Positions 450 to 19,099 of a stretch of DNA of 55,715 bases are shown here, one piece after another; position 1 is the first letter of the stretch, and the number at the start of each line of letters is the position of its first letter. The translations under genes were made by a program, and so were the position numbers. The DNA is from a virus: the IMG/VR virus record IMGVR_UViG_3300032288_002071, positions 1-55,715 of that record. One strand, 5' to 3'. The notes under the pieces are model-generated. The model did not search any database and was not told where the DNA came from. It saw nothing but the letters and a program-made list of their open reading frames with translations.

Positions 450-544
450 GGTAGACAGCACTGGTGTGCGGCGGAGACTTATAAACTCTGGAGATCGGTC
501 AGATGGGCTGGAACGGCTAGGTTCGAATCCTAGGTCTACTACCA
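450..544 (+). tRNA. tRNA-like gene with long variable region, isotype unresolved
   Basis: The acceptor (ggtagac/gtctact), a perfect T-arm (ctagg-ttcgaat-cctag) and an encoded ACCA end are clear. The 95-base length fits a class II tRNA. The best anticodon arm (473-489) has an A-A mismatch and the loop cttataa, which would place UAU at the anticodon, unexpected for a class II body. The usual U8 is A. It may be a divergent Leu, Tyr or Ser tRNA, or a decaying gene. Confidence 0.6.
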
Positions 545-556
545 GTATTTTTTGGT

Positions 557-630
557 GTGACTATAGTGTAATGGTAGCACTAGACATTGTGACTGTCTCA
601 GTTCGGATTCAAATTCCGATAGTCACCCCA
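557..630 (+). tRNA. tRNA-His (GTG)
   Basis: Acceptor gtgacta/tagtcac, anticodon loop ttgtgac between agaca and tgtct, discriminator C as expected for His, encoded CCA. Confidence 0.92.
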
Positions 631-639
631 AAAAAGATT

Positions 640-715
640 GGTGCTTTAGCTGATGTGGTCATAGCGGCGGTCTGAAGAGCCGTTGAAGTTGGTTCGATTC
701 CAACAGGCACCACCA
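640..715 (+). tRNA. tRNA-Phe (GAA)
   Basis: Acceptor ggtgctt/aggcacc, anticodon loop ctgaaga, T-arm gttgg-ttcgatt-ccaac, encoded ACCA end. Confidence 0.92.
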
Positions 716-717
716 AT

Positions 718-791
718 CCTCTCTTAGCTCAAAGGTAGAGCACCCGCTTGATAAGCGGTAGACGTTGGATCGATACCATCAGAGAGGACCA
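718..791 (+). tRNA. tRNA-Ile (GAT)
   Basis: Acceptor cctctct/agagagg, anticodon loop ttgataa, encoded ACCA end. The outermost anticodon-stem pair is a C-U mismatch. Confidence 0.88.
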
Positions 792-800
792 AGTAATAAC

Positions 801-875
801 GGTAATGTAGCATAATGGTAGTGCACCTCCTTCATACGGAGTAAAGTGTAAGTTCGACTCTTACCATTACCACCA
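801..875 (+). tRNA. tRNA with CAT anticodon (Met, or Ile2 if lysidine-modified)
   Basis: Acceptor ggtaatg/cattacc, anticodon loop ttcatac, encoded ACCA end. The fully paired 1:72 position argues against an initiator tRNA. Elongator Met and Ile2 cannot be told apart from sequence alone. Confidence 0.88.
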
Positions 876-876
876 A

Positions 877-953
877 GCGCCGGTGACGGAACTGGTATAC
901 GTGTATGCCTTAGAAGCATAATTTTAGGAGTTCGACTCTCCTCTGGCGCACCA
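877..953 (+). tRNA. tRNA-Leu (TAG) with a short variable loop
   Basis: Acceptor gcgccgg/ctggcgc and anticodon loop cttagaa. The D-arm reads acggaactggtatacgtg, which closely follows bacterial tRNA-Leu. The T-arm begins only five bases (atttt) after the anticodon stem, so the long variable arm normal for tRNA-Leu is missing. Confidence 0.85.
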
Positions 954-1009
954 AACACTCACCCTTGTATACGGTGTATAATGAGATAAGTAGTATACAA
1001 AAGATTTTT
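954..1009 (+). promoter_or_regulatory. Possible promoter or spacer inside the tRNA cluster
   Basis: The longest gap between tRNA genes holds a perfect TATAAT at 977-982 and two copies of the palindrome GTATAC (967-972 and 993-998), but no good -35 at the right distance. It could be an internal promoter for the Val-Cys-Ser-Ser group or a processing region. Confidence 0.3.
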
Positions 1010-1083
1010 AGCCCGTTAGTTTAATGGTAGAACTCCGTCTTTACACGGCGGTTACGGCAGTTCGATTCTGTCACGGGCTACCA
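1010..1083 (+). tRNA. tRNA-Val (TAC)
   Basis: Acceptor agcccgt/acgggct, anticodon loop tttacac, discriminator A, encoded CCA. Confidence 0.92.
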
Positions 1084-1085
1084 AT

Positions 1086-1163
1086 GGTAAGATGGCTGAG
1101 TGGTCCAAAGCAACAGTCTGCAAAACTGTAAAGCCGTGAGTTCGAATCTCACTCTTACCTCCA
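1086..1163 (+). tRNA. tRNA-Cys (GCA)
   Basis: Acceptor ggtaaga/tcttacc, anticodon loop ctgcaaa between acagt and actgt, T-arm gtgag-ttcgaat-ctcac, discriminator U typical of tRNA-Cys, encoded CCA. Confidence 0.92.
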
Positions 1164-1170
1164 AGTTTAC

Positions 1171-1260
1171 GGAAGTGTGGCAGAGTCCGGTTTATTGCAA
1201 CAGTCTTGAAAACTGTCGTGTCGAAAGGCACCGTGAGTTCGAATCTCACCGCTTCCGCCA
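1171..1260 (+). tRNA. tRNA-Ser (TGA)
   Basis: Acceptor ggaagtg/cgcttcc, anticodon loop cttgaaa, long variable arm (cgtgtcgaaaggcac), discriminator G, encoded CCA. A normal class II tRNA. Confidence 0.93.
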
Positions 1261-1267
1261 TTTTTAT

Positions 1268-1359
1268 GGAGTGTTGGCCGAGTTGGTCGAAGGCACTTTC
1301 CTGCTAAGAAAGCATACCTCAAAAGGGTATCATTGGTTCGAATCCAATACACTCCGCCA
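1268..1359 (+). tRNA. tRNA-Ser (GCT)
   Basis: Acceptor ggagtgt/acactcc, anticodon loop ctgctaa, long variable arm (tacctcaaaagggta), discriminator G, encoded CCA. Last gene of the main tRNA cluster. Confidence 0.93.
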
Positions 1360-1377
1360 TTAACAAGTTGATAACAC

Positions 1378-1406
1378 TTGACAATCTTTTTCATCTGTGC
1401 GATAAT
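1378..1406 (+). promoter_or_regulatory. Sigma70-type promoter, TTGACA-17-GATAAT
   Basis: A perfect -35 box at 1378-1383 and GATAAT at 1401-1406 are separated by 17 bases. The box lies a few bases upstream of the ATG at 1414, so the leader is very short or a later start is used. It is one of several near-consensus promoters before small genes in the window. Confidence 0.75.
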
Positions 1407-1413
1407 GTAACTT

Positions 1414-1602
1414 ATGACTAAATTATACATTGACCCGCCAAGTGGTTGGAAATACGGTTTTCCAAAAGTTTTCAATACTGAAACTGATGGTGATGTTATC
1501 AAATGGCTAATTGCTGAAGGCTATCCGCAAAAAGAAATTGATGCCTGCGGCGATTATTTCTTTACCCGTCAATGGGAGGTTGACGATGAAAACGAAAAAT
1601 GA
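1414..1602 (+). CDS. Small conserved phage protein of unknown function
   Basis: A 62-residue acidic protein beginning MTKLYIDPPSGWKYGFPKVF. I recognise no domain with a known function; short proteins with this kind of Pro/Gly/aromatic N-terminus recur in marine T4-type phages. A strong host-type promoter lies immediately upstream, and the next gene starts inside its end (1586), so the two are translationally linked. No signal peptide or membrane segment is visible. It is probably expressed early because of the promoter; its function is unknown. Confidence 0.7.
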   Translation: MTKLYIDPPSGWKYGFPKVFNTETDGDVIKWLIAEGYPQKEIDACGDYFFTRQWEVDDENEK

Positions 1603-1747
1603 TAAACTAAACAAACCACGAAATTTTGTGGCTAAAGACTTGTTTACACCCAAGTACCGCATGAAAGTGGAACACTCGGCTGTGAATGTTTATAAACGTG
1701 CAGCAGAGAAACAAAACTTTCGAAAGCAATCTAATGTCTATTTCTGA
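1586..1747 (+). CDS. Small basic phage protein of unknown function (RNFVAKDL type)
   Basis: A 53-residue basic protein. I chose the ATG at 1586 because GGGAGG lies at 1575-1580; the frame could extend further upstream without a good ribosome site. The N-terminal segment KPRNFVAKDLFTPKYRMKVE resembles short Lys/Arg-rich phage proteins beginning RNxVAKxL. Its charge suggests nucleic-acid or ribosome contact, but nothing in the sequence shows this. It overlaps the genes on both sides by 14-17 bases, consistent with one small operon from the 1378 promoter. Confidence 0.65.
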   Translation: MKTKNDKLNKPRNFVAKDLFTPKYRMKVEHSAVNVYKRAAEKQNFRKQSNVYF

Positions 1748-2156
1748 CAGACTTAAAACCCATCTAGCTGAAAATGATATGGAAAACTATGATGGGTTTT
1801 ATTTTATTCCATCGTTTGACGATGATGATGAAGAAACTTATAAATTAGCTTTCTTCAATCTTAAAGAAGAAGCAGCAAACGGTACACCAGTAGATTCATC
1901 TGAGATGGGAAACATGTATCATATGTGTTTTTTTAAAACTGCTGACAATGGTGCACCAATATTTGATGACGCCTTTGAAGCAATCCTTGCTGATCCTATT
2001 GTGTATATAAACAATCTTACAGGTTCAGGTTTAGGTGGGTGTATACTAAAGAAAACAGATAAGTCAGAAAAATGGTGGGTAGAATACCTTGATTATATTA
2101 CTGGCGGTGAATTTAAACAAAAAGTGAAAGAAGCATTTGGTTCTATTGGAGAATAA
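1734..2156 (+). CDS. Acidic hypothetical protein
   Basis: A 140-residue acidic protein, starting at the ATG at 1734 (MSISDRLKTHL); the frame is open further upstream but that part is a shadow of the preceding gene. It has Asp/Glu-rich runs (FDDDDEETYK) and a C-terminal aromatic segment (KWWVEYLDYITGG). There is no recognisable domain, signal or membrane segment. The next gene starts two bases after the stop. Function unknown. Confidence 0.65.
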   Translation: MSISDRLKTHLAENDMENYDGFYFIPSFDDDDEETYKLAFFNLKEEAANGTPVDSSEMGNMYHMCFFKTADNGAPIFDDAFEAILADPIVYINNLTGSGLGGCILKKTDKSEKWWVEYLDYITGGEFKQKVKEAFGSIGE

Positions 2157-2737: not shown

Positions 2738-2815
2738 GCGGGTATGGTGTTTAACGGTTAGCACGTGAGCCTTCCAAGCTTGAAGTGATGAGTTCGAATC
2801 TCACTACCCGCTCCA
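2738..2815 (+). tRNA. tRNA-Gly (TCC)
   Basis: Acceptor gcgggta/tacccgc, anticodon loop cttccaa, T-arm tgag-ttcgaat-ctca, discriminator U, encoded CCA. It stands alone 1.4 kb from the main cluster. Its 5' 26 bases match tRNA-Gly(GCC) at 291 except for one base, so the two look like duplicates with diverged anticodon and T-arms. Confidence 0.92.
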
Positions 2816-7018: not shown

Positions 7019-7524
7019 GAATAATTGTTGTATCTGGTGGCTTTGACCCCATTCATTCAGGTCATCTTGCTATGTTGCGTGAAGCAGCAGGTATGGGTGA
7101 CAAACTCATTGTTGGTGTAAACTCTGACGAATGGCTTACCCGCAAGAAAGGTAAAGCGTTCATGAGCATACATGAACGTAAAGCAATCTTACAAGCAATA
7201 CGTTGGGTCGATGAGGTATGGGAGTTTGATGATACAGACGGAACTGCTTGTGAATTATTAGACCGTGTGTTATCATCGTACAATACACGCATATACGAAA
7301 GCCATGAATTTGTGTTTGCTAATGGTGGCGACCGTAATGAATCAAACAATGCTGAAGCAAAAGTACCAGGTTGGCAATTTGCTTATGGTGTTGGTGGTAG
7401 TGATAAAAGAAATTCATCATCTATATTGTTAAGGAAATGGAATGAAAGTAGCGATAGTGACACCGACCATAGGTACAGACTTTTTGGAGAAGTGCGTAGA
7501 GTCGATCCAGAAACAAACATATGA
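7015..7524 (+). CDS. Cytidylyltransferase-like nucleotidyltransferase
   Basis: A 169-residue protein of the HxGH nucleotidyltransferase superfamily. The nucleotide-binding motif FDPIHSGH occupies residues 10-17 and the second signature NSSSILLRKW lies near 133-142. GCT- and RfaE2-type enzymes activate a phosphorylated sugar or polyol with CTP or ATP. The first start overlaps the upstream stop (ATGA). The frame runs 28 residues past the usual family end and overlaps the next gene by 83 bases, an unusually long overlap. That tail may be an extension of no function. Position before a glycosyltransferase, a 3,5-epimerase and a GalE-like enzyme suggests a shared activated-sugar pathway. The exact substrate cannot be told. 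Confidence 0.82.
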   Translation: MRIIVVSGGFDPIHSGHLAMLREAAGMGDKLIVGVNSDEWLTRKKGKAFMSIHERKAILQAIRWVDEVWEFDDTDGTACELLDRVLSSYNTRIYESHEFVFANGGDRNESNNAEAKVPGWQFAYGVGGSDKRNSSSILLRKWNESSDSDTDHRYRLFGEVRRVDPETNI

Positions 7525-8200
7525 AAATTTAACACATTATATTTTTGTTGATGGTGACGAATATACTGATAAAGTATTAGAAGTCACAAAAAATATTTCC
7601 GATAAAAAAATTAAAGGAGTATTTCTTGAAGAAAATGTTGGTAAAGGTTGGTATGGTCATAGGGTATATGCTGCATGTGGCTATCTTGTCAATGCTGATG
7701 TTATATGTTACCTTGACGAAGATAATTGGTTTGAGCCTAATCACGTTGAGAAACTTTTGGAGAGAATCCAAAAAGGTGCTGATTGGGCATTCTCACTAAG
7801 AAAAATTGTTGACCGTGATGGCAATTATGTTTGTGATGATAACTGTGAATCATTAGGTCAGTGGCCTATCTATTTTAATCCAGATGCTTTTCACATTGAC
7901 ACATCATCATTCATGGTGAAAGCAGACATCGCTCGTAAACTTGGTGCAGCATGGTATGGGCAGTGGGGTGCTGATCGTAATTTCTTCAATGCGTTGAAAC
8001 ATTACTTTCCAAACTTCTCTTGCTCTAAAGAATATTCTTTGAACTACCGTTTAGATGCTAATCCTAATTCTGTGAACGCTGAGTTTTTTGAAAAAGGTAA
8101 TGCAGAGAATGCCAAACGATATCCTAATGGATTTCCATGGCAACAAGTTTATTCTGAAGAATATGTGGTTGGACCTGGTATAACTATTGTGAGTGGATAA
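7442..8200 (+). CDS. Family 2-type glycosyltransferase
   Basis: A 252-residue GT-A fold protein. The N-terminus MKVAIVTPTIGTDFLEKCVESIQKQTY is the typical family 2 start (nucleotide binding), and YLDEDNWFEPNHVE (around residues 95-108) holds the acidic D-x-D-like metal site. Such enzymes transfer a sugar from a nucleotide donor. The ATG at 7442 follows AAGGAAAT. The stop overlaps the start of the next gene (ATAATGA). It may glycosylate a virion protein, phage DNA or host surface polymer; the window does not decide this. Neighbouring sugar enzymes support a dedicated glycosylation pathway. Confidence 0.85.
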   Translation: MKVAIVTPTIGTDFLEKCVESIQKQTYENLTHYIFVDGDEYTDKVLEVTKNISDKKIKGVFLEENVGKGWYGHRVYAACGYLVNADVICYLDEDNWFEPNHVEKLLERIQKGADWAFSLRKIVDRDGNYVCDDNCESLGQWPIYFNPDAFHIDTSSFMVKADIARKLGAAWYGQWGADRNFFNALKHYFPNFSCSKEYSLNYRLDANPNSVNAEFFEKGNAENAKRYPNGFPWQQVYSEEYVVGPGITIVSG

Positions 8201-8697
8201 TGAAAGTACAAGATACTGAAATTGAAGGCTTGAAAATTGTCATGCCTATTGTATATGAAGATTTTCGTGGTACGAACTTTGAGGCGTTCAATAAATTTAC
8301 ATATCATCACGAAGGTATAACACAGTCTTTTTTGGTAGATAGTATTTCTACTTCACGCAAACATGTGTTGCGTGGCATTCATGGTGATGATAAAACAACG
8401 AAACTTGTTTCATGTTTGTATGGTAGCATTTATGTTGTTGTGTTGGACCGTAGACCTGGTTCACAAACATACAATCAGTGGCTATCATTTAATCTATCGG
8501 ACAGAAACAAACATCAATTACTGATACCACCAGGTTGTGGTAATGGTCACCTTGTGATGTCTGATGAGTGTGTATTCAGCTATAAGCTTGACCAATACTA
8601 TGATCGTAAGTCACAGTTTACAATCAAGTGGAACGATCCTACATTTGAGATTTACTGGCCCGTAAAACATCCTATTTTGTCAGAAAGAGATAGATGA
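8200..8697 (+). CDS. RmlC-like dTDP-4-dehydrosugar 3,5-epimerase family protein
   Basis: A 165-residue cupin of the RmlC family. Matching segments are VLRGIHGDDKTTKLVSCLYGSIYVVVLD, which carries the conserved R-G-x-H with the catalytic His, and LLIPPGCGNGHLVMSD. RmlC epimerises C3 and C5 of a 4-keto-6-deoxy sugar nucleotide on the way to rhamnose-type sugars. Related enzymes act only at C3 or C5, so the product here is open. It is slightly shorter than typical RmlC (about 180 residues). It overlaps its neighbours by one to four bases. Confidence 0.85.
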   Translation: MKVQDTEIEGLKIVMPIVYEDFRGTNFEAFNKFTYHHEGITQSFLVDSISTSRKHVLRGIHGDDKTTKLVSCLYGSIYVVVLDRRPGSQTYNQWLSFNLSDRNKHQLLIPPGCGNGHLVMSDECVFSYKLDQYYDRKSQFTIKWNDPTFEIYWPVKHPILSERDR

Positions 8698-9677
8698 GAA
8701 CAGCATTTGTGACAGGTGGTGCAGGTTATCTTGGTTCACACTTAGCAAAAGCATTAAAGCAAGCCGGTTATTACACATTCTGCTTTGATTTAAAAATTCC
8801 AGAAAATAAAAAATACTGGGACAATTATGCATTTGGTGATGTGCGTAATTGGGAAGATTTGCATCAATCTTTTGAAGATTTACGTTTGATCCATAATAAA
8901 AAACCAGACGTTGTATTTCATCTTGCAGGACTAATTGAAGTTGGACTATCAGTAGAAAATCCGATTGACTTTTGGGAAACAAATGTCGGCGGCACTTGCA
9001 ATCTACTCTCCGTAATGAAAGCATTTCATGTTAATAATATTGTTTATTCTTCTACTGCCGGTCTTTATCGTCCTCAGTTTACCACGCTCTCAGAGAAAGC
9101 CGAAGTAGGCAGCAACAATCCGTATGCCAATAGCAAGTATGCTGCTGAATGTGCTATTCGTGATTCAAAACTGAATCATGTAATCTTTCGTTTCTTTAAT
9201 CTTGCTGGTGCTGATCCAGATGGTGAAATGGGCGAATCACATGATCCAGAAACACACTTGATTCCAAGAATGTTTGAAAGTCTAAATAATCAAGAGTTCT
9301 ATATTTACGGAAACGATTATAATACTTCAGATGGCACGTGTATAAGAGATTATGTACATGTGTCCGACATTGCAGATGCACATATACTGGCTGACCAGTA
9401 TCTGCAAACTCCATATGCAAATCAGCCACGAACATTCAACTTAGGAACTGGTAAAGGTCATTCAGTATTAGAAGTGATACAAACTGCCGTGACAGAGTTA
9501 GACATTCCTATTCTTTATTTGTTTAGAGAAAGACGAGATGGTGATCCGTCAAGATTGGTCGCCAACTGTGATTCCGCTAAACGATATCTAAACTTCAAAC
9601 CGAAACATAATTTAAAATCTATTTTGAGAACTGCGTATACTTGGTATGGAAAACAAAGAGACAGAACTACCGTTTGA
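8694..9677 (+). CDS. GalE-like NAD-dependent sugar-nucleotide epimerase (extended SDR)
   Basis: A 327-residue extended short-chain dehydrogenase. The Rossmann motif TGGAGYLGSH is at residues 7-16. The active-site elements are SSTAGLY (Ser/Thr) and YANSK (Tyr-x-x-x-Lys), followed by FRFFNLAGADPDGEMGE and RDYVHVSDIADAH, all typical of UDP-glucose 4-epimerases. It probably converts UDP-glucose to UDP-galactose or a related pair and supplies donor sugar to the glycosyltransferase. It begins inside the stop of the RmlC-like gene and its end overlaps clpP by 32 bases. Confidence 0.88.
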   Translation: MRTAFVTGGAGYLGSHLAKALKQAGYYTFCFDLKIPENKKYWDNYAFGDVRNWEDLHQSFEDLRLIHNKKPDVVFHLAGLIEVGLSVENPIDFWETNVGGTCNLLSVMKAFHVNNIVYSSTAGLYRPQFTTLSEKAEVGSNNPYANSKYAAECAIRDSKLNHVIFRFFNLAGADPDGEMGESHDPETHLIPRMFESLNNQEFYIYGNDYNTSDGTCIRDYVHVSDIADAHILADQYLQTPYANQPRTFNLGTGKGHSVLEVIQTAVTELDIPILYLFRERRDGDPSRLVANCDSAKRYLNFKPKHNLKSILRTAYTWYGKQRDRTTV

Positions 9678-10176
9678 TTCGTATGCTCACTTCATGTCCG
9701 GCACTGTTGACCCGATGACAATTGAGTATGCTGCTAAATGGTTGATGAATGCAAAATTCAACAAGATTGAAAAGCCACTAACTCTTCATATAAACTCTGA
9801 AGGTGGTGATCTGGGTGATGCTATTGGTCTGGTTGATCTGATGCGTGGTGTTCGCCCTGTCCGAACACTTGCATATGGTAATCTGATGAGTGCAGCTTTT
9901 ATGATATTTGCTGCTGGTGAAAAAGGCTATCGTGCTATTGGTAAGAATACAACCATCATGATTCACCAGTTCAGTGACAGTCTGGAAGGCAAGTATCACG
10001 ACATGAGAGCATATGCTAAAGAATGTGACAGATATAACGAACGCATGGCAGAACTTCTTTCCGACTGCTCAAACTTGACAGTTAAAGATGTCAAGCACAA
10101 ACTTCTGAAGCCGACTGATGTATGGTTGACGGCTGATGATTTGATTTATTATGGTATCGCAGATATAATCTTCTAG
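9646..10176 (+). CDS. ClpP-family serine protease
   Basis: A 176-residue ClpP-like protein. The oxyanion region reads LTLHINSEGGD (46-55), the nucleophile is Ser82 in YGNLMSAAFM, the base is His107 in TIMIHQ, and Asp158 in PTDVWLTADDLIYYGIAD is the probable third member. ClpP chambers degrade proteins with an AAA+ partner. No ClpX or ClpA is present in the window, so a host partner, or a separate role such as head maturation, is possible. Divergent ClpP-like proteins are known in marine T4-type phages. The tmRNA at 18158 makes a link with tagged-protein breakdown worth noting, though this is inference. Confidence 0.88.
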   Translation: MENKETELPFDSYAHFMSGTVDPMTIEYAAKWLMNAKFNKIEKPLTLHINSEGGDLGDAIGLVDLMRGVRPVRTLAYGNLMSAAFMIFAAGEKGYRAIGKNTTIMIHQFSDSLEGKYHDMRAYAKECDRYNERMAELLSDCSNLTVKDVKHKLLKPTDVWLTADDLIYYGIADIIF

Positions 10177-16297: not shown

Positions 16298-16480
16298 ATG
16301 GCAAAACGTTCGTTGCAGAAAAAAGTAGCACTGTTGAATGAATATCTTACACAAGAGCTTGAAAAAGAAATCAAAACTGAAATAACACAAATTGAAAAAG
16401 ATAATATCGCTGCAAAGAACGAAAAAAAGTTTATAAGACAAAATTACCCACACTATAGTCGAAATCATTACGTCACATGA
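16298..16480 (+). CDS. Small charged helical protein
   Basis: A 60-residue protein; the ATG at 16298 follows AAAGGAGC, which decides the start over an upstream in-frame alternative. It is one long charged helix (QKKVALLNEYLTQELEKEIK, then TQIEKDNIAAKNEKKF), probably a coiled coil, with a basic aromatic tail. The stop overlaps the start of the nuclease gene at 16477. Function unknown. Confidence 0.6.
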   Translation: MAKRSLQKKVALLNEYLTQELEKEIKTEITQIEKDNIAAKNEKKFIRQNYPHYSRNHYVT

Positions 16481-17142
16481 AAATATTTGAACATGTAAAA
16501 CTCCCACAACTACAATTTGATCTTGAAGCTGAGACTACCGATAGTGGTAGATTTTATACGACACCGGAAGGTAACAAGTATAAATCTATCACTACGGTTC
16601 TTTCACATTATGGCAAACAAGCAATTTATGAATGGCGACAAGCTGTTGGTGAAGAACGAGCTAATGAAATTTCACGTAAAGCATCAAATCGTGGAACAAA
16701 GGTACATAAGATATGTGAAGATTATCTGAACAATGAAATAAGTGAATTCAAGTTACAGACCATGATGCCTGACTTGAAGGAACTGTTCTTCAAAATCAAA
16801 CCTGACATTGATGAAAGCGTTGGTAAAGTCTACGCACAGGAACAAGCACTATACTCTGACAAGTACAGAATCGCTGGTAGGGTTGACTTGATTGCTGAGT
16901 GGAATGGCAAACTATCTGTTATCGACTTCAAAACTTCCACAAAACAAAAAGACGAAGAATATATTCAGAACTACTTTATGCAGTGTACAGCATATGCTCT
17001 GATGTTTCATGAGCGTACTGGAATATGGATTGATGATATTGTGGTGCTGATAGCTACTGAAGAAGGACCTGCTCAGGTATTTGAGAAACAGATACATGAC
17101 TATCGGCAACCCCTAGTTGAGTATATTGATAAATATGCTTGA
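16477..17142 (+). CDS. PD-(D/E)XK family nuclease (Cas4/RecB/MGME1-like)
   Basis: A 221-residue nuclease. The motif GRVDLIAEWNGKLSVIDFKTS (about residues 134-154) holds the catalytic Asp of GxxD and the D-x-K core. An upstream helix with GTKVHKICEDYL provides the RecB-type His, and QNYFMQCTAYALM is the usual following Q-x3-Y helix. This matches exonucleases of the RecB/Cas4/MGME1 type found in T4-superfamily phages, which act on single-stranded or free DNA ends. It may serve recombination or host DNA breakdown. A late promoter element sits in its 3' end for the next gene. Confidence 0.85.
   Translation: MKIFEHVKLPQLQFDLEAETTDSGRFYTTPEGNKYKSITTVLSHYGKQAIYEWRQAVGEERANEISRKASNRGTKVHKICEDYLNNEISEFKLQTMMPDLKELFFKIKPDIDESVGKVYAQEQALYSDKYRIAGRVDLIAEWNGKLSVIDFKTSTKQKDEEYIQNYFMQCTAYALMFHERTGIWIDDIVVLIATEEGPAQVFEKQIHDYRQPLVEYIDKYA
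17128..17135 (+). promoter_or_regulatory. Putative T4-type late promoter GATAAATA
   Basis: One mismatch from TATAAATA, inside the 3' end of the nuclease gene and 23 bases before the ATG at 17158. Confidence 0.5.
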
Positions 17143-17157
17143 CATTTTGGAGGCATC

Positions 17158-17688
17158 ATGCTATCATTCAAACAACACCAACAATTAGATGAAGGTAATC
17201 CACTGGCAAGACTTCATAAACATGCTCAAGAGGGTAGGCATTATGCTGTTATTTCCTCACAGCGTCCGCATGATGAAGTATCGCCGGAAGAGAATAAAAA
17301 GCGTCATGAGGAACTTAAAAAGAAACTGACTGCTCAAGGCTATTCCCACAAAGAAGTTGAAGGACATTGGGAGGGTGGCAAAGAGAAGTCTATTATGGTA
17401 CATGCAAAAGGTAAAGGTGATGAACACGGCAAACAGTTGCTCCATGATATCAAGAAACATGGAGAACATTATAATCAAGACTCAATCTTACATCATGATG
17501 GAAAAACTGCAACCCTACATGGGACAAACAAAACAGGATTTCCAGGACACGGTAAGACAGAACCAGTAGGTAAGATGGCTTATAACAAAGCACATTCGCC
17601 GTTTCAAACAGAAACAAAACCTAAATCTGACAAACCGTTGAAGCCTGGAAGAACAAGTAAAGGTTCGGCTAGATTTACAACGGAGTAA
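17158..17688 (+). CDS. DUF3293-like phage protein
   Basis: A 176-residue His/Lys-rich protein preceded by TTGGAGG. The region HYAVISSQRPHDEVSPEENKKRHEELKKKLTAQGYSHKEVEGHW, followed by NQDSILHHDG and TLHGTN, matches the DUF3293 pattern: a strand, an N-x-x-R-H-x-x-L helix, an x-G-x-W turn and a Q-D-S-x-x strand. The N-terminus MLSFKQHQQLDEGN is like those of several T4-type late proteins. The C-terminus is a basic disordered tail. The family has no established function. A late promoter element 23 bases upstream suggests late expression. Confidence 0.7.
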   Translation: MLSFKQHQQLDEGNPLARLHKHAQEGRHYAVISSQRPHDEVSPEENKKRHEELKKKLTAQGYSHKEVEGHWEGGKEKSIMVHAKGKGDEHGKQLLHDIKKHGEHYNQDSILHHDGKTATLHGTNKTGFPGHGKTEPVGKMAYNKAHSPFQTETKPKSDKPLKPGRTSKGSARFTTE

Positions 17689-17867: not shown

Positions 17868-18027
17868 ACGAACAATAGTCAGAGCAATTAGTTGGCGTAT
17901 AGTAGCAACATTAGTAACAGCAGCATTTACTGGTTTGTCTGGTGCTATTGTCATTAATATTTTTATGACTATTGCCCACTACATTCATGAACGAGTATGG
18001 CTTAAAGTGAATTGGGGTAAAGAGTGA
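17851..18027 (+). CDS. DUF2061 small membrane protein
   Basis: A 58-residue protein whose N-terminus KRTIVRAISWRIVATLVTA is the signature of DUF2061, a family of small membrane proteins found in bacteria and marine phages. The hydrophobic stretch spans about residues 14-45 (IVATLVTAAFTGLSGAIVINIFMTI), followed by the typical HYIHERVW. The function is unknown; the position near an envelope gene set is only suggestive. It overlaps the next gene by four bases (GTGA). Confidence 0.8.
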   Translation: MTETHKRTIVRAISWRIVATLVTAAFTGLSGAIVINIFMTIAHYIHERVWLKVNWGKE

Positions 18028-18176
18028 TTGTTTGTGTTTGTAGAAACATTAAAGAATCAGATTTTGAAACACAAGAAGAACTGGTCGAACGCATAATGCA
18101 ATGCGATCATAATTGTGGACAGTGCCAAGAGTATTGTACACAGTTGAAAGAATTGTTGTATATCCCTTCAAAGTGA
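18024..18176 (+). CDS. BFD-like [2Fe-2S] ferredoxin
   Basis: A 50-residue protein starting at a GTG that overlaps the upstream stop (GTGA). The Cys pattern C4-x-C6 and C31-x-x-C34 (VCVCRNIKESDF and CGQC) matches the bacterioferritin-associated ferredoxin domain, with a shorter gap between the Cys pairs than in E. coli Bfd. Bfd-type domains carry a [2Fe-2S] cluster and help release iron from bacterioferritin; the same domain occurs in redox enzymes. A fourth downstream Cys (C38) is extra. The 3' end runs into the region that should form the acceptor half of the tmRNA, so the two genes probably overlap. Confidence 0.8.
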   Translation: MIVCVCRNIKESDFETQEELVERIMQCDHNCGQCQEYCTQLKELLYIPSK

Positions 18177-18480
18177 AGGCATTCTGGACGTGGGTTCGAC
18201 TCCCACCATCTCCACCAAAAGCATATTGTAGAAACACATGAGCAGGTTTCTCACTACCGCTGGTTACGTATAGAATCGTAAGTGAGTGTAGGCAGTATGC
18301 TTCTGATGGGGATGACAAGGTTTCGACAGGGTGAGATAGTGGAGAAGGCAACACGAAAGGCGACGGACGTAATCCGAGCAAATTAGTAAATGCAAATGAT
18401 GCATTTTATGGAGAAGAACGCCTAGCAGCGTAATCTCTTGGGGTTTACGAGAGTGTACCTTATTACCCAAACACTCTCAC
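18158..18480 (+). ncRNA. ssrA: Circularly permuted (two-piece type) tmRNA
   Basis: The acceptor half comes first: GGACGTGGGTTCGACTCCC (T-arm) and then catctcc-A-CCA ending at 18217. After a 90-base intervening segment the coding half starts at 18308 with ggggatg, which pairs over seven positions with catctcc, followed by the typical caaggtttcgacaggg. The tag frame starts at GCA 18392 and reads ANDAFYGEERLAA, stop TAA 18431-18433. It is followed by a pseudoknot-like hairpin (GAGAGTGT 18449-18456 with ACACTCTC 18471-18478; GGGT 18441-18444 can pair with ACCC 18465-18468). tmRNA rescues stalled ribosomes and tags the nascent protein for proteases such as ClpXP. This order is the permuted form that is cut into two RNAs. 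The 5' limit of the acceptor piece is not resolved and probably overlaps the ferredoxin gene. Confidence 0.9.
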
Positions 18481-18496
18481 CAATTTCTTTTATATT

Positions 18497-19099
18497 ATGC
18501 GTGTATACATCAGCAACTATCGGCATCACTGGATTTCTCCATACACAATGTTGGAGAAAATCTTCTTCTGGCGTGAGATTGATTATAATGAACCACTGAT
18601 TGAAAAATGGTCTGACCGTCTAGAGCCAATATCAAAAAGCATTCAATGGTTTCTTGACTTTGTTCGCCCACGTGTAGTTGATGTGAAGATTGATTATTGG
18701 GACACATGGAGCATGGACGCAACATTGACTCCTATTATTCTTCCAATGCTCAAACAACTCCGTGACACCAAACATGGATCGGGTTGGATTGATCCTAAAG
18801 ATGTTCCAGAATATATGAGAACGTCCGACAAGAATGATACTGATTATGGTCAACAAATGTTTGACTTTTATAATGAAGAAAGTATTCATGAATTAAAATA
18901 TGATATACATGATCGTTATGAATGGGCACTCAATGAAATGATTTTTGCGTTTGAATGTCTGTATGATGAAAACTGGGACGAACAATTTTGGGACAAAGAC
19001 AATAGAAAATGTGATTGGGATGCCCGCCAAAAGATACAAGACCGCATAGATAATGGGCTGCGCTTATTTGGTAAATACTACCAGACACTCTGGGATTAA
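18497..19099 (+). CDS. Conserved phage protein with IDYWDTWSMD motif, unknown function
   Basis: A 200-residue acidic, aromatic-rich protein. The conserved core (KIDYWDTWSMDATLTPIILPMLKQLRDTKHGSGWI) recurs in T4-type and other large phages as a hypothetical protein. The C-terminal half is helical (WALNEMIFAFECLYDE, then RKIQDRIDNGLRLFGKYYQ-like). No catalytic motif is known to me. It starts 19 bases after the tmRNA pseudoknot with no obvious ribosome site, so it may be read from the same transcript. Function unknown. Confidence 0.7.
   Translation: MRVYISNYRHHWISPYTMLEKIFFWREIDYNEPLIEKWSDRLEPISKSIQWFLDFVRPRVVDVKIDYWDTWSMDATLTPIILPMLKQLRDTKHGSGWIDPKDVPEYMRTSDKNDTDYGQQMFDFYNEESIHELKYDIHDRYEWALNEMIFAFECLYDENWDEQFWDKDNRKCDWDARQKIQDRIDNGLRLFGKYYQTLWD

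Follow-up and report, generated by a model that had tools for sequence, protein, structure and literature searches.

The window, a 55,715-base IMG/VR record, is a fragment of a T4-like phage and carries a permuted tmRNA gene on its plus strand. We predict, with a probability of about 0.8, that this gene makes a working phage tmRNA, which uses the SmpB and alanyl-tRNA synthetase of the host and adds a phage-specific degradation tag. At the level of sequence, the support comes from the anatomy of the RNA, covariation, conservation of the tag as coding sequence, restriction of the tag to viruses, exchange of tags and spacers, and the presence of ClpP. Expression, processing, charging, rescue, and a coupling between the tag and the phage ClpP are what we infer from these features.

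The Rfam model for permuted tmRNA, RF04321, matches positions 18154-18433 (+) over its full length (1-213) with 149.3 bits (E 1.3e-29); its gathering score is 47 bits. The betaproteobacterial model RF01850 (beta_tmRNA) matches 18072-18492 with 137.4 bits (E 7e-42) and was the best of the alpha, beta, and cyano models for this gene (beta was kept as clan best). ARAGORN calls a permuted gene (tmRNA*) and reads the tag as ANDAFYGEERLAA. A first-pass annotation had described a permuted tmRNA with the acceptor half first and a tag with an AND start and an LAA-type end, and had named a covariance-model search as the check. That search has now been run; both models match, and the description stands.

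The elements follow one another in the order acceptor piece, spacer, coding piece, tag, and 3' pseudoknot, all on the plus strand. The acceptor piece (18154-18217) was delimited by the RF04321 alignment, the sequence, and the acceptor pairing. It includes the P2-side strand, the T-arm (18190-18206), the acceptor 3' strand CATCTCC (18207-18213), and the ACCA end (18214-18217). Next is an intervening spacer of 90 nt (18218-18307), presumably excised, which is recognized by its fold and by identical spacers that recur in genes with other tags. The 5' part of the coding piece (18308-18391), placed by the RF04321 and RF01850 alignments, starts with the acceptor 5' strand GGGGATG (18308-18314) and contains GGTTTCGAC, the core pseudoknot region, and the resume signal TAAAT. 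The tag frame (18392-18433) runs from GCA to GCG and ends with the stop codon TAA; it is identified by ARAGORN, by its codon-position variation, and by its virus-only distribution. An H-type pseudoknot (18438-18478) lies 3' of the tag, with the stems TTGGG (18438-18442)/CCCAA (18466-18470) and GAGAGTGT (18449-18456)/ACACTCTC (18471-18478); the long stem covaries strongly among relatives. The plus-strand gene had been located nearly correctly before, and the limits of the tag (18392-18433) and of the 3' pseudoknot (to about 18478) are small corrections.

The first seven bases of the coding half were proposed to pair with the acceptor strand, and all seven pairs of GGGGATG with CATCTCC are indeed formed, G3.U70 among them. 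G3.U70 is the alanine identity pair. The stretch from the acceptor strand through the coding start folds as one continuous hairpin of −39.2 kcal/mol (z −4.4), and no shuffle was as low. The spacer alone folds at −25.8 kcal/mol (z −2.4). In the predicted precursor, the ends of the spacer make a long helix that prolongs the acceptor stem. A promoter and terminator scan gave no signal exceeding shuffles, and no riboswitch (glnA or other) was matched beside the window tmRNA. A small cysteine-rich ORF of 50 aa at 18024-18176 (+), which resembles a ferredoxin by eye, runs into the acceptor piece, so that its TGA falls within the tmRNA; in related contigs, the upstream ORF that stops at this TGA is a different one.

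The structure varies among viruses in the manner of a paired RNA. Of 18 distinct acceptor stems from viruses, 16 are paired at all seven positions, with base pairs differing at positions 4 to 6, and 17 retain G3.U70. The stem 3' of the tag covaries widely among viral relatives (GAGAGTGT/ACACTCTC, GGTAGCTG/CAGCTACC, and GCCGACTG/CAGTCGGC). Of 97 distinct spacers, 89 form a terminal helix. The median spacer length is 71 in viruses and about 30-32 in the sampled bacterial genes. A comparison of 32 distinct 13-codon tags from viruses shows variation at 3 first, 4 second, and 13 third codon positions, so that every third position varies. The search pattern fixed residues 1-7 of most tag rows, a bias that affects neither residues 8-13 nor the third positions; residues 10-13 (R-L-A-A), which lie outside the fixed part, are almost invariant. 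Since the third positions vary and the peptide is kept, the tag is not a chance reading, and we rule that possibility out. The RNA match, the acceptor pairing, the hairpin, and the covariation are far beyond chance. That the gene is a non-functional remnant is highly improbable in view of the covarying stems, the conservation at the codon level, and an Rfam score well over the gathering score.

The phage tmRNA might act mainly as a decoy or regulator, titrating SmpB or flooding the ribosome and altering host tagging. A TLD-only molecule is reported to inhibit tmRNA (PMC4131195, PMC11915505), and a role of this sort has been proposed for the TLD-only tmRNA that mycobacteriophage DS6A carries. 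We found no SmpB gene in the window, itself a genome fragment, or in 12 related records, so the SmpB used would have to be that of the host, and this dependence is in keeping with a decoy. A decoy would not need the tag frame, which is intact and kept as a peptide, and the resume signal and stop codon are retained as well. We consider a decoy unlikely.

The tag family ANDAF[YF]G[ED]xRLAA looks new, in that it occurs in viruses only and is kept as a peptide. With a DNA pattern combining the resume signal and ANDAF[YF]G, matches were found in at least 76 viral contigs, and a search of 84,980 genomes (species) of bacteria and archaea gave no match. When the resume signal was left out, the looser pattern had 46 cellular matches, none of them within a tmRNA gene. 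This shows that the scan works and that the tag is absent from the cells searched. The alphaproteobacterial tags sampled are of the ANDN type with a single ANDD exception, and the betaproteobacterial permuted tags are nearly all of the ANDE type. Tags with no cellular match could stem from unsequenced hosts.

Other viral tags depart from this family. There is a second class of viral permuted tmRNA whose tags are very long, at about 24-31 aa, for example ANADTFDFSAMSFTGNTVRGAANESRFALAA and ANASTFKFFEVPASVATAANAERFELAA, in which an extra stretch is followed by a normal-looking tag end (L005, L041, L047, L051, L024, L066, L007, L062, and L118; several of these contigs exceed 200 kb). ARAGORN also reports viral tags that end in SFAV rather than LAA (AKASTGEVTVSGKGVKFSARTVKAESFAV; L086 and L100), which are possibly misread frames.

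In a tree of the RNA, the window gene falls into a virus-only group of 98 (the window and about 97 viral genes) with modest support, where virus-only refers to the cellular genes sampled. Its closest cellular genes are betaproteobacterial (tree distance 0.74, against 1.93 to alpha), and, with the same modest support, it is not placed among the sampled bacterial beta genes. The permuted-model cut-off is passed by 19 of 349 sampled Burkholderiales and by 304 of 337 Alphaproteobacteria. These results bear on the suggestion in the first-pass annotation of capture from a host, taken here as a recent capture of the host's own tmRNA that would add dosage of the same activity. Such a capture would account for the other phages of the clade that bear tags typical of, and identical to, those of Burkholderiales (ANDERYALAA, ANDESYALAA, and ANDERFALAA, for example). 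It is nevertheless unlikely for the window, because none of the 84,980 cellular species yielded a tmRNA with its tag, its RNA body belongs to the virus-only clade at a clear distance from the nearest beta genes, and few of the sampled Burkholderiales have the permuted form.

The permuted form was also thought to point to the host lineage. Permuted tmRNA genes were found in T4-like phages of Stenotrophomonas, which we take to be a one-piece tmRNA host, and of Synechococcus elongatus. We assume that the sole control genome above the permuted cut-off is that of Caulobacter, in which case S. elongatus stays below it. The occurrence of permuted genes in phages of hosts that have, or are expected to have, the one-piece form and their rarity in Burkholderiales mean that the host cannot be read from the shape of the gene; with the virus-only clade, they led us to reject this inference. 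Reading a host lineage from a permuted tmRNA in a phage contig is therefore unsafe.

Comparison of related contigs provides evidence that the tag and the excised spacer act as exchangeable cassettes, which appear to have been swapped repeatedly. In one pair (L039 and L046), the flanks are 86-88% identical and the RNA cores 97-98%, and the tags (ANDAFYGEERLAA and ANDERYALAA) are 57% and the spacers 38% identical. In another (L089 and L065), the spacer is 100% identical, the upstream flanks are 57-60% identical, and the tags differ. A single clade of ANDAF RNA bodies has an AU p value of 0.047 with long branches and of 0.00025 after their removal, and was rejected on the latter value. With long branches removed, the tag class changes 14 times on the RNA-body tree; the alignment is short (154 columns), which makes the number of exchanges rough, and we give no count.

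The T4-type phage named in the first-pass annotation agrees with the T4-like baseplate, gp32, and helicase-loader genes in the window. The cultured phages with the closest gp6 protein (about 41% identity) are Mosig, the Melnitz isolates, and HTVC008M. No cultured phage was matched by megablast over 25 kb of the window, and none had a tmRNA match that extended over the tag region. The genomic position of the tmRNA is conserved across dozens of contigs. Upstream are a PD-(D/E)XK exonuclease gene (phrog_298; 16477-17142, +), kept near the tmRNA in related contigs, and a conserved gene for an S-adenosylmethionine lyase-family protein (17158-17688, +; PF23780, E 1.3e-13), which is possibly an anti-restriction gene. 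Downstream is phrog_11543 (18497-19099, +), of unknown function and also conserved in related contigs. Twelve tRNA genes, eleven of them clustered, precede the tmRNA at 291-1359 and 2738-2815 (+).

The window also encodes a ClpP-family serine protease of 176 aa (9646-10176, +; PF00574, 94.9 bits; matches to ClpP in the PDB). Its triad (Ser82, His107, and Asp158) is intact and does not vary across 16 phage ClpPs. The protein scores below the NCBIfam cut-offs for cellular ClpP. Alignment with cellular ClpP begins roughly 30 residues along the chain and, on the phage side, at residue 16; the N-terminus of the phage protein is short and unaligned. In ClpP, the N-terminus is the contact with the unfoldase, and its axial loops dock ClpX or ClpA. 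The neighbors of the gene are sugar-nucleotide and tail-fiber genes, and glycosyltransferase-like, dTDP-4-dehydrorhamnose 3,5-epimerase, and nucleotide-sugar epimerase genes are seen beside it at 7442-9677 (+).

ClpP is present in 22 of the 39 tmRNA-bearing phage records examined, and its strand is that of the tmRNA in every locus examined. A permuted tmRNA lies within 10 kb of 27 of the best 80 ClpP loci, all on the same strand. The kind of ClpP found in the window is present in only 6 of 50,697 phage records; one of these is BUCT-ZZ01, which has ClpP and a permuted tmRNA together. From this co-occurrence, the phage ClpP may take part in destroying tagged products, with shared descent as a possible cause of the association. 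The two genes would then travel together as old accessory genes of one lineage, and ClpP would have its job elsewhere, in takeover or structural processing. We regard this as quite possible, at somewhat less than even odds. The synteny is common to T4-like members, and several tmRNA phages have no ClpP: it is absent from the complete genomes of Melnitz and Menderavirus and from several contigs, so ClpP is not required. A weak score of the phage ClpP with the head-maturation ClpP model also fits a job elsewhere. The position of ClpP relative to the tmRNA, on the other hand, varies between groups (8-9 kb upstream, 2-3 kb upstream, or 1.4-3.4 kb downstream; about 0.4 kb downstream in G693), which argues against shared descent. 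So does the prohead protease gp21 (PF03420), which 15 of 19 records encode separately, though the window fragment itself does not. Since gp21 is separate in most phages, ClpP is not needed for the prohead role; with ClpP outside the head cluster as well, a replacement of gp21 by ClpP is disfavored.

A further point against shared descent comes from four jumbo-phage records, which combine a tmRNA with ClpP and a ClpA-like unfoldase of about 750 aa (L417 (G705), L418 (G711), G699, and G709, with two ClpPs in G705 and G709). A full ClpX of 409 aa (513 bits; cut-off 359) is encoded at 537-1766 (-) of L416, a 159-kb IMG/VR record that lacks ClpP and has the tag ANDAFFGEVRLAA. No PHROG match was obtained for six proteins near the tmRNA of this record, so its viral nature is less sure. 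SspB was found in none of 25 records (the window and related ones).

A working phage tmRNA, the reading we prefer, would act as follows. A single precursor would fold into the continuous hairpin of acceptor stem and spacer helix. The spacer would be cut out by tRNA-processing enzymes of the host, presumably RNase P together with 3'-end nucleases, and the host alanyl-tRNA synthetase would charge the RNA via G3.U70. With SmpB and EF-Tu of the host, it would then reach ribosomes that stall on broken mRNAs during infection. Translation would switch to the phage-encoded frame and append A-ANDAFYGEERLAA, the LAA end of which would route the product to Clp proteases. As the tag was not found in cells and the phage supplies a ClpP subunit, the phage probably adjusts the way in which tagged proteins are degraded or the protease that degrades them. 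Of the two functions suggested earlier, ribosome rescue appears plausible from the sequence, and redirected tagging, a candidate role, is more plausible given the virus-only tag and the phage ClpP.

The tags of tmRNA are usually regarded as fixed, host-specific degradation codes. Large phages might carry their own trans-translation and proteolysis module, made up of a cassette-exchanged two-piece tmRNA, a virus-specific tag, ClpP, and sometimes a ClpA- or ClpX-like protein. It would replace the host tag code and route products to a phage-modified Clp protease. We put this forward tentatively, as it could well be wrong. If true, phages rewrite quality-control tagging during infection, with a virus-only tag that is kept as a peptide, swaps between RNA bodies, and is often accompanied by ClpP.

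That a T4-like phage has a permuted tmRNA is not in itself new. Buchholz and colleagues described a two-piece tmRNA in the Methylophilales phage Melnitz and classed as probable two-piece genes 53 of the 133 unique tmRNA structures that came from 402 tmRNA phages, nearly all of them aquatic (PMC9004378). The tmRNA database paper holds 79 phage tmRNA sequences (PMC11915505). Huge phages with a tmRNA and, in some cases, SmpB have been reported (PMC7162821); like the window, they carry parts of trans-translation on the phage, and the main text of that paper describes neither a link to a Clp protease nor tag families.

Melnitz and the Pelagibacter phages Mosig and HTVC008M are similar to the window phage in being T4-like aquatic phages with a permuted ssrA and no SmpB. 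The tag of Melnitz is ANDNYVPVDYALAA, which groups with the alpha type, and a glutamine riboswitch accompanies its tmRNA. The window RNA differs in its beta type, the lack of a riboswitch match, and its virus-only tag, and the window has a ClpP gene besides. Menderavirus, a Stenotrophomonas phage, and the Synechococcus phage BUCT-ZZ01 are also T4-like with permuted tmRNA, and BUCT-ZZ01 shares ClpP. They differ in their tags (VAANDDSYTVRIAA and ANDETFSMALAA) and in having hosts with a one-piece tmRNA, known or expected. The betaproteobacterial tmRNA of RF01850, the best older model (137 bits), shares the TLD, G3.U70, the resume signal, and the PK1 region with the window RNA. The window RNA differs from it in having the 13-aa tag ANDAFYGEERLAA in place of ANDExx[FY]AxAA and a structured spacer of 90 nt, compared with the bacterial median of about 30-32.
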